Assembly (NCBI RefSeq): GCF_964355755.1
Contig: NC_092670.1
Span: 11,965,201 to 12,029,200, forward strand
Reading direction: 5' to 3'
DNA from: Antedon mediterranea
Taxonomy: Eukaryota > Echinodermata > Crinoidea > Comatulida > Antedonidae
Length of the DNA: 64,000 nucleotides
Under the pieces are notes generated by a model, which was given only the letters and a program-made list of their open reading frames with translations, had not been told where the DNA came from and did no database searches. Of the stretch, positions 8,432-17,400 are shown piece by piece. The first letter of the stretch is position 1; the number at the start of each line of letters is the position of its first letter. The position numbers and the translations under genes are program-made.

Positions 8432-11400
8432 TTAATCTTTCTTGGTTCGGCCAGTGAAATGGTCCATGCAGGCATCGGTGCCATAGAACCGAAACATACG
8501 ACTCTTAGCAGTATCTGGTAAAAGGCTAAAAGAAAAAACAAAACAGAATTTATTATTAACCTGACTAGAAGATACCGTAGGCATACAATACAGTTATGAT
8601 TTAGAATGACGATCTATGACGTAACAACACCCAATGACGTCAATAATGTTATAATAGTGATCGTGAACATGATAATAATACACGTTGTAGGCCTAATTAT
8701 CTCCCCGCACTCCTAGCGTAAGATTTGAAGGGAAAATGGCTTATGTATACCCAACAACTGGCGTACTTACTCTCTCAACTTCACCAAAAGTCTAATAACA
8801 GCAGGAATGTAAACATTCTTCTCGTTCGTCAGAATACCTCTCATGATCTTATTCACTGCAACCTCTGGTTCTACGATCGGCATAATACTTGGAAACCTAT
8901 AATGACAGAGAAAAATAAGATAAATCAGGCATTCAAGAAGGAAATAAACTTGTAAAATGCACAGATCGAGAGAGGGCGGGCTATTGAATATTTTGGCCCA
9001 TATTGAAGATAGACAACTCGAGATTTTTTACATACTGTTGTGACGTTTCAATATCGATTTGTTGTTTCTCTTAGTGCTGAAAGCTTATTTAAACATTCTA
9101 AAACGTTTTTTTTAAATATTTTTATAGTTTTTTACAGTTTTAAGGGCTAAAATCTCCACCTGTTACATGATGGTGCTCTTGTGTTGTACAGTATTCTGAT
9201 CCGACACAAGATCAGTGAATTATGCTTATACACGAATATATAGTTGTGTGTAAGACTGAACTAGTGTTGCCTGTGCGAAAGTGTATTCATCACGTTGAAA
9301 TACTAGGCTGGTAAACTAAGTTTAAAGAGGAATTTTACTGTAGGGGAATTATGATTTGCATGTCATAACAGACTCGTATACCTTGTTTTAACCCCGTCAA
9401 ACATTCCAGTGTTAATGAAGAATGGACAGACGACAGTTGTGTGAACGCCCCTGAGGCCCATAAACATCAGTTCAAAGCGTAAAGACTCGTCTAAACCCAC
9501 GGCAGCAAATTTACTTGCGCAGTAGTCGATCAGTCCTTTCGTGCCAAAAAGTCCGGCAGAGCTGGCGATTGTTACAATATGGCCATGGTTTCGTTCTATC
9601 ATACTTGGTAAAAATGATTTAATTGTCTAAAAGAAACAAATATATCAGTTAAGTTAGGTAAAAACACTTTGCGTCATAGATCAAATTAAAAAGTATGCAA
9701 CCATCGGAACACATTAAAATCATTTAGTGTGACTACGAGCTACTTACCTTATTTCGTTACTCTATCATTATACACTATCTATATACAAGCGAAGGTTATC
9801 TTCCTTAAAACTATATCAATTTGTTTCCAAGTTTATGATATAAAATTGGTGTAAATATTTTTGTCAATTGGCTCAATGCTTTTGTATGGCAGTTGGAATG
9901 TCAATGAGGAGACATTTTTAATGCATTAAAATATATGGTCTCGGCCAGACCCAGTGGGCACAGAACATAATTTCAACGTTGAATCAACGTTGAAATATAG
10001 TTTATTTGTTGAAATCATGTTGTCAGCGTTTTTCAAATGTTGAATCAACGTTGAAATAACATTTTTTCCCTAACTATTTTTTTTACGTTTAGTAATAAAC
10101 ATTGAATCAACGTTGAAATAACATTTTCTTTTTAACTAGTAATTTATGTTAATTAATAAATGTTGGTTTAACGTTGAAATAACATTGTCTTTCTAACAAA
10201 TGTTTTACGTTAATTTATCAATGTTGATCCAACGTTGAAATAACATTGTTTTTAAAACAAATGTTTTACGTTAATTTATAAATGTTGATTCAACGTTGAA
10301 ATAACATTGTATTTTTAACTAGAAATTTACGTTAATTTATCAATGTTGATCCAACGTTAAAATAACATTGTCCTTCTAACTAGTAATTTACGTTAATTTA
10401 TCAATGTTGATTTAACGTTGAAATAACATTGTCTTTCTAACTAGTAATTTACGTTAATTTGTCAATGTTGATCCAACGTTGAAATAACATTGTATTTTTA
10501 ACTAGAAATTTACGTTAATTTATCAATGTTGATCCAACGTTAAAATCACATTGTATTTTTAACTCGAAATTTACGTTAATTTATCAATGTTGATCCAAAG
10601 TTGAAAAAACATTGTATTTTTAACTAGTAATTTACGTTAATTTATCAATGTTGATCCAACGTTGAAATAACATTGTATTTTTAACTAGTAATTTACGTTA
10701 ATTTATCAATGTTGATCCAACGTTGAAATAACAATGTATTTTAAACTAGAAATTTACGTTAATTTATTAATGTTGATCCAACGTTGAAATAACATTGTAT
10801 TTTTAACTAGAAATTTACGTTACTTTATGAATGTTAATCCAACGTTGAAATAACATTGTCTTTTTAACTAGTAATTTAAGTTAATTTATCATTGTTGATC
10901 CAACGTTGAAATAACATTGTCTTTCTAACTAGTAATTTACGTTAATTTATCAATGTTGATCCAACGTTAAAATCACATAGTATTTTTAACTAGAAATTTA
11001 CGTTAATTTATCAATGTTGATCCAACGTTGAAATAACATTGTATTTTTAACTAGTAATTTACGTTAATTTATCAATGTTGATCCAACGTTAAAATCACAT
11101 AGTATTTTTAACTAGAAATTTACGTTAATTTATCAATGTTGATCCAACGTTGAAATAACATTGTATTTTAACTAGTAATTTACGTTAATTTATCAATGTT
11201 GATCCAACCTTGAAATAACATTGTATTTTTAATTAATAATTTACGTTAATTTATCAATGTTGATCCAACGTTGAAATAACATTGTATTTTTAACTAGAAA
11301 TTTACGTGAATTTATTAATGTTGATCCAACGTTGAAATAACATTGTATTTTTAACTAGAAATTTACGTTAATTTATTAATGTTGATCCAACGTTGAAATA

Positions 11401-14400
11401 ACATTGTCTTTCTAACTAGTAATTTACGTTAATTTATCAATGTTGATACAACGTTGAAATAACATTGTCTTTATATCTAGAAATTTACGTTAATTTATCA
11501 ATGTTGATCCAACGTTGAAATAACATTGTATTTTTAACAAGAAATTTACATTAATTTATCAATGTTGATCCAACGTTGCAATAACATTGTATTTTTAACT
11601 AGAAATTTACGTTAATTTATCAATGTTGATCCAACGTTGAAATAACATTGTCTTTCTAACTAGTAATTTACGTTAATTTATCAATGTTGATCCAACGTTG
11701 AAATAACATTGTATTTCTAACTAGTAATTTTTTTCAAACAGTTATTATTTTTGTTTTTCAATGTTATTCCAACGTTATTTTAACGTTGAAATCCAGTTGT
11801 CATTTTCAAATGACATGTTTTCAACGTTGAAAAACTCTTGAAATTATGTTGTTTTTTCAAACAATTATTATTTTTTTTTTCAATGTTAATTAAACGTTAA
11901 ATTAAAGATAAATTCTATTTAATACTTTGGTTAAAATGACATGTTTTTAACGTTTAATATTAAATAATTGTTTAAGTGCATTGCCATTGATGTTTCAACG
12001 TTAAATTAACATTAGATTTCAGTTGGCGGTTTATTTTATCATCCTTTATTGTAAAACAAATGATTATTGGTTATTTAGGAATTTTAGATTGGCAAATTGT
12101 CTCTGTATAATACAAAAATGTTCTAAGAAGTTGTTGAAAATTGAATGATCCTTTCATGCAAGATCAAATTTCATAAGATACGTGCTTGTCATTGGTTAGT
12201 TTCGTTTTGATAAAATTTTGAAACTGGTGTCAGTAATTTCAGTTACTTCGACATAGGCTAGGCCTACAGTAGTAGTGGTGTGTAGAAAAAAAAGGCTCAT
12301 CATTGAAATTGTCAAATAAGTATGTTTTGAGGTAGGAAAACAATCTTTTTTATTTGTAATCTACTAATTTATAAGCTTTGAGCTTGACTATTTTACCCTT
12401 ATCAAACAATAGCTAGCCTCTAGTCTAGGCCACACATGCATAGCTAGGCTATAGCCTGGTAGGCTAGGCCTAGGCCTATATAGGCTAGGCTAGTAGGCTA
12501 GGCAGGCTGCCAAACTGATGAACTGAATTCACTCACTAGGCCTAGTGGAAGCATTTAGTATTATGCATGTCAAGTGCAAACATTTGCCTTGCCAAGGATA
12601 ACTACAGTTCTGTACTTTATGGTTATAAAATGGTATGTATTAGGCCTAGGCTAGGCCTTTTAGTTCAATAATACTTTCTTTATTTATCCAAAAGTATACA
12701 TAAATATAACATTATAATATTTAATTAGTTGGCCTAGCCTAGCTAGCTTTCTGCTAGGCTGTCTACAGTAGCTGCTAATGCTATTATTAGTGTTAATAGT
12801 ATACAAACACATGTTGCTTGCCTAGCCTAGGACGGCTATTTGTTAAACTTACTCGCTTTCTTTATTTCAGATTGTAGGCCTAGCTAAGGCCCTTAGGCCT
12901 ATGCCTAGCTAGAGTACAAAATAATGAAGTACATGTAGGCCTATAATCTTTTCTATGTGAATCAAACGAGAAAAATCTAATGGATGATCAATATTTTTAT
13001 ATACAAAAGGTTGGTATTTATAGTTCTTAACTTTAATATTGAATTGAATAAATATTACGCCGTGGTTAGGATTCCGGCACCGCAACTCAACTTCCCATCG
13101 TTAGGGAATCCGACACGCTATTGCGCATGCCCAGAGCGAAGTAATTATAGCTTGCACTAGTGCCACAGACCGCGCACCACATTACCCGAGAGTCGGAGTG
13201 TTAACTAGGGATGTACTGTGTAGCCAAAGATATCTTTGCTGTGGCCTAGTTAGTCGTCGCGCGGGGGAGAGAGCGATGGATGAAACTTGGCCTAGGCCAT
13301 ACATGAATTAATAATTATGCCACGCGTTAAAATAATTATTATGATATTGATAAGAATCAGCTTGCATATTTCAAGAAATGTACGAAAATGAATAGCGTAG
13401 CGTTGCGACACCGACTTCTCCCGAATAGGTCTGTTTTATTTTTTCACATCCGCACGGCGGCTGCTGTCAACAAATCAACTTGTATACGATTGCATGATGT
13501 TATGTACAGTATAAATGCGTTATATGAAATCTTTTATTTTGTACTTGAAAAATCATAAAAATTAAAACTAGTCATGCAATTATAATTCATAAATATATAA
13601 AGTTTATATATGAATGAAGCAAATTTAATTACGAAATAAATAGGCCCAATGGTCACATCTAGCTGGTAGGCCTACTAGTATTAGTAGGCATGTAGGCCGC
13701 TAGTTCGCCGTGGCGCAGCTATTAAAATGATCCATCGCTGTAAAGCTTGGTTCCCACTAGAACGTAACGCAAGGACGTAAACGCAACGCAAGCGTTTTAA
13801 CCAATGACAAGCGAAGTTATAGACAGTTAGCAATCACAAGCGAATAAGCCATCGCTTGTGATTGGTCAATTTACTTGCGTTGCGTTACGTCCTTGTGTTG
13901 CGTCGCTAGTGGGAACCACGCTTTGGTCTGTTGTAGACAAAAATAGAGTCGCCGAATACCTCGCTCTGGGCATGCGAAATAGCGTGTAGGATTCCCTAAC
14001 GCTGGGCAGTTGAGTTTCGTTGCCGGAATCCTAACCACGGCGTAAATATTAATACAGTGTTGCAATATTATTTACATAAATTGAATTGATTGCATAGTTT
14101 ACGAGTAAGTGTGAAATGATGTTCTGAATTGAATTTTTGTTTATGTACAGTATGATTTTTGAACAATGTGTTAAAGATATAATTGAACTGAACAATTTTT
14201 TTTTAAATGTTTTGTTGAATATGCCGTCACTATAGAGTTGTTCACTTTGACCAAAAATTAGATTTTAAAAAATGCATTTGTACCTTAAAAGGTGGACAAT
14301 TTAAACAAACAATTGGTTTTTGGTTAAATGTACTGTTTATTTTGTATTTTTGTTAAGTGAAATCTTTATTGTTTTTGTTTATTTTCTACGGCAAGTGAAT

Positions 14401-17400
14401 ATCTAAATTGTTAAAATTGCAAAATGGCAAGGTATTCGAAGTATGATTGTATTAATCTTCATTGTTCATGTTTTTTGGGGACAATAAATCTTTCAACAAT
14501 TAATTTTTTACTGTATTATTTTTGTTTAAAACTACAGTAACTTGATTGAATTTGTTTCAGGTTTGGAAAAATAATATTGCCACACTTTTGGAAAGCATAG
14601 GACAATGTCAACACAGGAATCGAGGCAACTGTTTATTGACTAATCGGAACAATGCAATTACAGTATTGTGTTATTACCATCATTTGGACTTCTGCAACAT
14701 TAGCACAAGGCACCTGTGACGTGTGTTGTATTTATTGTGTTTTACTGTAATCAGCCAATATTTATAGTTATTCAATCATGTTAGTTGGCAAACATATTAC
14801 AAACTGGTTATTAGTATATTTTTTATACTTAACATTGGTACCTGAGAACTGTCAGTGAGGATGTACATTATTTGATTGTTGCTTGGATTTTGCCTGATGA
14901 TTTGATAACACCTGATTAAATGTTATTTTATGTTTTTATAGAAATTAAAGATTAGTAAGATATACAGTATTTATAAAATGTCTCTATTGATGGATTCTGC
15001 GATGTAACAGTAACTTTACTACTAACTACTTTAAAACCGTTGATTCAAATTGGATATAGTAATTCAACAAATCAAATTTCAACGTTAAATCTATGTTTAA
15101 ATTTACGTTGATGAAAATTTTCATTTCAACTTAATTATTACGTTGTTTCAACGTTAATAATGTCAACATTGAATCAACATTGATAATTTCAACGTAGACA
15201 TTTTTACGTTGTTTCAACGTTGATAATCTATGTTGAATCAACGTTGACATTTTTGTTGAGGCAAACTTTCATTTTCAACGTTATTTCAACGTTACCTATT
15301 TTAACGTTGTTTCAACGTTGATAATTTCTATGTTGATTCAACGTTGACATTTACGTTGAGGCAAACTTTCATTTTCAACCATTTTTTCAACGTTATTTCA
15401 ACGTTACCTATTTTAACGTTGTTTCAACGTTGATAATTTCTATGTTGATTCAACGTTGACATTTAAGTTGAGGCAAACTTTCATTTTCAACCATTTTTTC
15501 AACGTTATTTCAACGTTACTTATTTTAACGTTGTTTCAACGTTGATAGTTTCTATGTTGATTCAACGTTGACATTTACGTTGAGGCAAACTTTCATTTTC
15601 AACCATTTTTTCAACGTTATTTCAACGTTACTTATTTTAACGTTGTTTCAACGTTGATAATTTCTATGTTGATTCAACGTTGACATTTACGTTGAGGCAA
15701 ACTTTCATTTTCAACCACTTTTTCAACGTTATTTCAACGTTTGCAGATAACGTTGAATTAACGTTAATTCAACCAATTTTTGCCCACTGGGGAGTAATTA
15801 TATAAATAAATAATATAGATTAATTATTTGGAGTGTACAATTATATTCTAATGTAATATTAATTAGGTATTTGTAATCGAGATTTTCTTTTTCGAATTGA
15901 ATAAATGCGATCAAGTAAACCATAATAATGATTATGATGATAAATACTATGAAATAGTAAAATTTTCAAGTTGTTATAAATTTAGGGCCTACAACATTTT
16001 AGAATATACACGAATATATTTGAACCCATCACGCAAGCGGACATTGTAAGAGAACAAAAAACAGCGATTCGATTGGAAATACTGTATCTTACGAACTTCA
16101 GTCGAGTCGCTTCAAAATAAAGGATTGTTCTACATTCTTGTGTCACCTCACACCGAGAGGGGTCAAGTCATGTCATGTCAGGTTTGTCAAAGATATTAAT
16201 AGAAAGCATATGGTATTACAATATTAATGAAATTCGAAACACGTCCTATAACTACGGGGTGACTCTCTCAATCCATCCATTTTCACAGTTGAAACACTTT
16301 TATACCGTTAGCCATATAGTAATGTATTTTACCACGACATTATTATACAGTATAGTTACTACTGTACACAGGCACAATGCCATATTTATCATTCCAAGGC
16401 TAATTTTAGTATATTACATGCCTATATTATCGAGCCAGACCATAACAAAACATCATTGTATCAAAGTGTCTTGAACTTCATTACATTAACTACATTAAAA
16501 AAAGAAACTGCAACTAAATCTACTGTACGAAAGTCATACAGACGTAATAATTAATAGGCCTACGCATGCACCGCAATGATATTCAAAATAAAACTTTTTT
16601 ACCAAAACACCTTTTTTCATAATAGTAGTAATTTTTTTAATATTTCCTCCAAAATGATCAGATTTATAAAAAACATAGTCTGACAAGAGTTATGTATCGT
16701 AATCTTCAAAATATCGTTTGTCCCGCCTACTGTTATACATCACGACCATTGTCTGGTACATTATATATAAGGAACGACGAAATATTTCTTTAATTTTAGA
16801 AAATATCACATGGGACTCACTATTAAATATTTGTACCAAATATAGCACTATTCCCAAGTGTGGAAAACTCACTGCAGTATATATTCCAAAACAGAGTTTA
16901 TTAGGTTTCAAATGATTGTTTATTTAGGTGTATATTGGTTAAGTTTAAAAACTTTTAGTTTCCTCCTTAGCTTGAAAATTGATCTTAACAGCTTGACCAG
17001 TGTGATGTGCAACTGGTCAACTTCTTGGCAATCATGTGTATCAGACTGGTCAAGTGTCCTGGTTTTCAATTTCAATTAATAAAGGCTTGGGAATTTGTAT
17101 CTAATTCTAACAGCTTGACCAGTGTAATGTACACCAGTTTGGTGAAGTGAAAGTATGTTAGGTTACAATTTATAACACTGTATGAATCTCCAAAACTTAC
17201 CCAAAAATGAGCCGTAGTATTAACATCCATTGTAAGTTGGATCATTTTATCTGGCGAATCCATGAACTTCTTTCCAGTGACCACTCCAGCGTTATTCACC
17301 AGAATATCCACATCACCTACTGCTTCTTTCACTTTGTCGGCGACATTATAGACGTCTTCTCTTTTACTAAGGTCAACCTTGTAGTAGTAGGCGTCTGCTC

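Follow-up and report, generated by a model that had tools for sequence, protein, structure and literature searches.

The giant element found in the window (the whole 64,000-nucleotide stretch of DNA analysed) was a recently mobile, transposase-less DNA transposon with about 31 full copies in the source genome. It most likely belonged to the EnSpm/CACTA-like superfamily, and very probably it was a non-autonomous element moved in trans by a CCCAG-tipped EnSpm/CACTA-like transposase, with its AACGTT arrays being putative subterminal binding sites. The element (9950 to 15791) had inverted tips, two end arrays (61-bp units at the A end and 112-bp units at the B end), and 2-bp target-site duplications, and it was organized as follows:

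9948..9949, no strand: left copy of the target-site duplication (GA), exact 2-bp duplication
9950..9960, + strand: terminal inverted repeat CCCAGTGGGCA, A end
9961..10035, + strand: A-end leader, holding the first CAACGTTG words
10036..11730, + strand: A subterminal array, 27.8 x 61 bp, with roughly one AACGTT in each unit
11729..11954, + strand: A-end degenerate inner repeats, about 122 bp x 1.8
11955..15065, no strand: interior, with no transposase and AACGTT nearly absent, common to the family copies compared
13055..14045, no strand: nested palindromic repeat with 89-bp arms within the interior, also in other family copies
15066..15271, - strand: B-end degenerate inner repeats
15272..15741, - strand: B subterminal array, 4.2 x 112 bp, several AACGTT per unit
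15781..15791, - strand: terminal inverted repeat CCCAGTGGGCA, B end
15792..15793, no strand: right copy of the target-site duplication (GA), exact 2-bp duplication

The initial annotation had placed a 5.8-kb element with 11-bp inverted tips here, and its coordinates were right: the two CCCAGTGGGCA tips, in inverted orientation, were the sole matches in the window with one mismatch allowed (0.15 expected). Its counts of about 28 units of 61 bp and about five units of 112 bp agreed with the 27.8 copies of the A array (91% matches) and the 4.2 copies of the B array (98% matches), the latter amounting to five units with partial copies included. Both arrays were, as it had stated, saturated with AACGTT: (i) 33 words at the A end (shuffle mean 3.9, maximum 10), with a density of 16 per kb; and (ii) 28 words at the B end (shuffle mean 1.9, maximum 7), with a density of 39 per kb. 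The 3-kb interior of the window copy had none, and CAACGTTG was found 35 times in the window versus 1.0 expected. The opposite orientation ascribed to the two arrays held for their longer context, in which inverted matches between the A and B arrays covered stretches of 31 to 44 nt at 70–88% while the units themselves were unlike, but not for AACGTT; this word is its own reverse complement, and thus orientation applies to the longer context only. No open frame of 90 codons was present in the window copy. A second nested inverted repeat, with arms containing GGTTCCCACTAG and CTAGTGGGAACC, was located at 13742 to 13924 of the window, and it was found in other family copies too.

The 354-Mb source genome of the window was searched for both ends. 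With zero mismatches over 29–30 bp, there were 41 matches to the A end and 34 to the B end, and only a handful of diverged ends (two to three mismatches) were found in this search. Facing A and B ends made up 31 pairs, which were 5.7 to 12.2 kb apart and distributed over all eleven large contigs C1 to C11; more than 30 B-ended copies also had the unique DNA from within the B array, at 95–100% identity. The two bases outside the tips were identical in 29 of the 29 pairs examined, the third flanking base agreed in one of 29, and four bases agreed in none of 29, while unrelated (cross-pair) flanks used as the control agreed at two bases in 13%; the duplication was thus exactly 2 bp. Eleven different dinucleotides were duplicated, TA being the commonest (9/29), and the target was weakly symmetrical, so that the target-site duplication was a free sequence of 2 bp. 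The paired copies and their duplications fitted the earlier proposal of an element with possible transposase-binding sites in its arrays, and the arrays, far from occurring elsewhere without ever sharing these tips, lay in 31 copies with both ends.

The family was young, with arrays that gained or lost entire units. Over 5.8 kb, no substitution and two small indels separated the window copy from the copy at C11:10020761. Compared to the window copy, one close sibling (L056) had two 61-bp units fewer, another (L053) had seven 61-bp units more (426 bp), and a slightly older copy (L057) had one additional unit of 112 bp. The comparison of array sizes between copies that had been proposed earlier gave 23.7 to 36.7 units at the A end and 4.0 to 7.0 units at the B end. 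Older relatives with recognisable A ends had one 61-bp unit, and an older B end had two 112-bp units. Since near-identical copies differed by whole units and older relatives had one or two, the arrays grew recently and at each end separately, which matched the independent expansion suggested in the initial annotation. Three old single-unit A ends (L037, L039, and L080) had their outer flank in common, which indicated that the old copy itself was carried within a larger repeat.

It had also been proposed to look for longer copies with a transposase between the same arrays; none was found, and the long copies were accounted for by nested insertions and satellite-like arrays. Transposase was absent from all 12 giant copies examined: the C9 transposase and DUF4806 proteins (see below) had no match in the window copy and 11 other family copies compared, the C4 transposase (see below) had no match in the long family copies, and no copy having exactly CCCAGTGGGCA tips plus a transposase was found among the copies examined. 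The longest copy (12.2 kb) was considered as the autonomous element and rejected, as it contained no transposase and its extra length included satellite-like arrays with 30-bp and 70-bp periods. Nested insertions in long copies included (i) a reverse-transcriptase fragment in L035 and (ii) a distinct transposon, whose inverted ends measured about 300 bp, at about 2140 to 4500 of L033 (C4:11674410–11683204). The transposon nested in L033 contained a protein piece with HYFTDGCGGQYKNKYNFINLCHHQEDFG, which had no Pfam match above the cut-off. The A-only ends were likewise considered as a second, autonomous subfamily, and none of the four that were read fitted: one was a truncated copy, two were older single-unit relatives with a common flank, and one kept about 75 bp of the end.

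Transposase-bearing relatives were present in the same genome, where the search with Transposase_21 gave two loci. The 15.5-kb C4 element (L041+L043+L044; C4:23784644–23800143) had tips CCCAGCTAACA and TGTTAGCTGGG, the duplication TA, and AACGTT arrays at both ends (left, period about 212 bp; right, 104 bp x 4.7); its copy on C8 was 99.8% identical over 6.3 kb and was integrated at another site with the duplication AA. The 674-aa protein of the C4 element matched Transposase_21 (E 1.4e-5) and then DUF4218 (E 1.8e-4), and the C9 transposase, 43% identical to it, matched both domains too, all these scores (C4/C8 and C9; E 1e-5 to 2e-4) being just below the Pfam curated cut-offs. Transposase_21 followed by DUF4218 is the domain order of CACTA proteins (PMC8978399), and the C(2)C motif (GCDKC) was seen in P0001 and P0002. 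The C9 element had a right end composed of an AACGTT array (176 bp x 5.8) that terminated in CTGGG, and its left end was not found within 11.5 kb; the C7 element had an 81-bp AACGTT array upstream of the transposase, and neither of its outer ends was found. AACGTT was present in these transposase-bearing relatives at 12–27 per kb at the ends and at 0.1–0.2 per kb inside, and it was the commonest 6-bp palindrome in six of the six arrays tested (12–39 per kb versus 0–0.2 in interiors).

A second gene was recognized in three EnSpm-like elements, namely the C4 element, L078 (C9), and L050+L048+L051 (C7): DUF4806 was matched 3′ of the transposase with E values of 2.5e-9 in C9, 2e-5 in C4, and 3.5e-4 in C7, on genes whose exons were chosen and joined by eye.

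Several other sequences were observed around these loci. CCCAGTGGGT beside the C9 transposase was considered as a tip and rejected, as it sits in a palindromic repeat whose motif recurs near C7; this repeat, with CCCAGTGGGT and GTACACTACAT, was located beside two transposase loci (L045 in C9 and L083:3873–4060 in C7), possibly representing a small MITE of no relation to these elements. The giant B end and the right end of C9 had a 12-bp match, which was set aside as uninformative, given the number of AACGTT words compared. L046 and L047 (C2:18609024 and C6:8213193) were an intact transposase pair with frames of 752–800 aa that were 36% identical to P0001; no AACGTT array was found within 4.5 kb upstream, and these transposases probably represented a different branch. 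A sequence resembling 5S rRNA (Rfam 5S_rRNA, E 6e-14) was located at L043:2907–3027, inside the autonomous C4 element, and further sequence came after it, as in a 5S-derived SINE.

The giant family was then set against known systems. According to PMC12730594, duplications of 2–5 bp are allowed for the CMCT clade, whose termini are CA..TG "in most cases." As to the features of EnSpm/CACTA elements, (i) the 2–3 bp duplication (2–5 bp for the clade) was matched by 2 bp in 29 of 29 pairs and by TA and AA in the relatives, (ii) the short motif crowded at both ends was matched by AACGTT, and (iii) instead of CACTA or CA..TG termini, CCCAG..CTGGG was found in the giant family and in the relatives whose ends were found. 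The element was not filed as a proven CACTA member, because of the lack of a CACTA or CA..TG terminus and of a transposase with these tips. CACTA/EnSpm elements (En/Spm of maize; Jozin of Chenopodium, PMC8978399) were alike in short terminal inverted repeats, word-crowded subterminal regions, Transposase_21 plus DUF4218 matches, just under the cut-offs, in autonomous relatives, a second element-encoded protein, and non-autonomous passengers; here, however, the tips were CCCAG rather than CACTA, the duplication was 2 bp rather than the 3 bp usual in plants, the word was palindromic and located in long tandem units (61–212 bp) differing between the ends, and the second gene was DUF4806-like. Plavaka, ESTA, Lanisha, and other CMCT lineages shared the EnSpm-like transposase with the C(2)C motif, and Plavaka also the 2-bp duplications, but the reported termini of Plavaka were TGT..ACA or CATCA..TGATG instead of CCCAG..CTGGG, and AACGTT arrays were unmentioned for CMCT lineages in the excerpts of PMC12730594. 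PIF/Harbinger, piggyBac, and Tc1/mariner, with fixed duplications TWA, TTAA, and TA, respectively, were rejected on the 11 different dinucleotides with TA in only 9/29, and hAT (8-bp, 5–8 bp duplication) was rejected on the agreement of 3 bp in 1/29 and of 4 bp in 0/29. Zisupton (KDZ) resembles the giant element in comprising large elements with subterminal inverted repeats. It differed in its 8-bp duplications, as given in PMC12730594, and in its unrelated transposase. No precedent for the tip, the word, or DUF4806 with transposons was found in the open-licence literature; Repbase and Dfam may hold one. What was new was the combination of CCCAG tips, 2-bp duplication, long and unlike arrays at the two ends, and a DUF4806 second gene; in kind, the element was EnSpm-like with subterminal repeats.

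As no transposase with exactly CCCAGTGGGCA tips was found, the link to the EnSpm-like lineage rests on the architecture, the first five tip bases, and AACGTT. The giant element might instead be a non-autonomous transposon of another 2-bp-duplication superfamily (e.g., ISL2EU-like or an unnamed group) that came to resemble these relatives in AACGTT by convergence; this was judged unlikely. It would fit the missing transposase, the termini other than CA..TG, and the exact tip sharing with the C4 element, which was limited to the first five bases, but AACGTT arrays end three separate EnSpm-like transposase elements whose interiors are nearly free of the word, and the C4/C8 tips have in common with CCCAGTGGGCA both CCCAG (positions 1–5) and CA (positions 10–11), together with an equal duplication length of 2 bp.

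For movement in trans by the EnSpm-like machinery, the following mechanism is proposed. A DDE transposase would cut at the CCCAGTGGGCA tips and leave the 2-bp target duplication, and the AACGTT arrays would offer many sites for an element-encoded protein, either the transposase or the DUF4806 protein. The bound protein would bring both ends together while the transposase cuts the tips, by analogy with maize En/Spm, in which TnpA binds repeated subterminal motifs. The word AACGTT would be conserved and the surrounding unit would be a lineage-specific product of tandem duplication, units being gained or lost whole, presumably by unequal exchange or slippage and separately per end. Transposase-bearing CACTA-like relatives carried the same word at their ends, and thus the arrays probably bind the transposition machinery; a fixed word in changing units at the ends of CCCAG-tipped elements is best read as a protein-binding site. 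We infer that the giant family is moved by a transposase of this EnSpm-like lineage in the same genome, on whose machinery it would be a passenger.

That the arrays act by DNA structure, with excision or array instability driven by hairpins or cruciforms of the palindromic words and with no specific binding protein, was considered highly improbable. When folded as single strands, both ends and the 112-bp unit did beat shuffles (z −4 to −5, with −2.3 for the dimer of the 61-bp unit), and array length varied between near-identical copies, but what was conserved across lineages was a specific 6-bp word rather than a long hairpin (the units differed and the word stayed), and long inverted arms were no fixed feature of the 61-bp unit. 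Folding stronger than that of shuffles means that structure may contribute, while the conserved 6-bp word points to a protein, and the cruciform alternative raised in the initial annotation was not needed. Recombination spreading a segmental or satellite structure, or an artefact of the assembly, might account for the large tandem arrays and the flank common to three old A ends, but this reading was refuted by the exact 2-bp target-site duplications (29/29), with the 31 paired copies lying at unrelated sites on C1 to C11, and was given virtually no weight.

Along with movement by a CCCAG-tipped EnSpm/CACTA-like transposase, it is tentatively suggested that these elements make up a distinct animal EnSpm-like branch, recognizable by CCCAG tips together with 2-bp duplications, with DUF4806 as the accessory protein and AACGTT as an unchanging binding word. 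In such a branch, the word might have been long kept while the units were repeatedly replaced and re-amplified per end. DUF4806 is a domain of unknown function, and its tie to a transposon second gene suggests a role for it. Arrays, if they escaped from the element, would be ready-made satellites. The series of units (61-bp units going from one to 23.7–36.7, and 112-bp units from two to 4–7), in which some near-identical copies have arrays of unequal length, makes it possible to test whether transposition is raised or tuned by longer subterminal arrays, and it bears on the reason for many binding sites in CACTA-type elements. If such an animal branch does exist, the length of the binding array would be a fast-evolving trait, and non-autonomous copies would win through long arrays.
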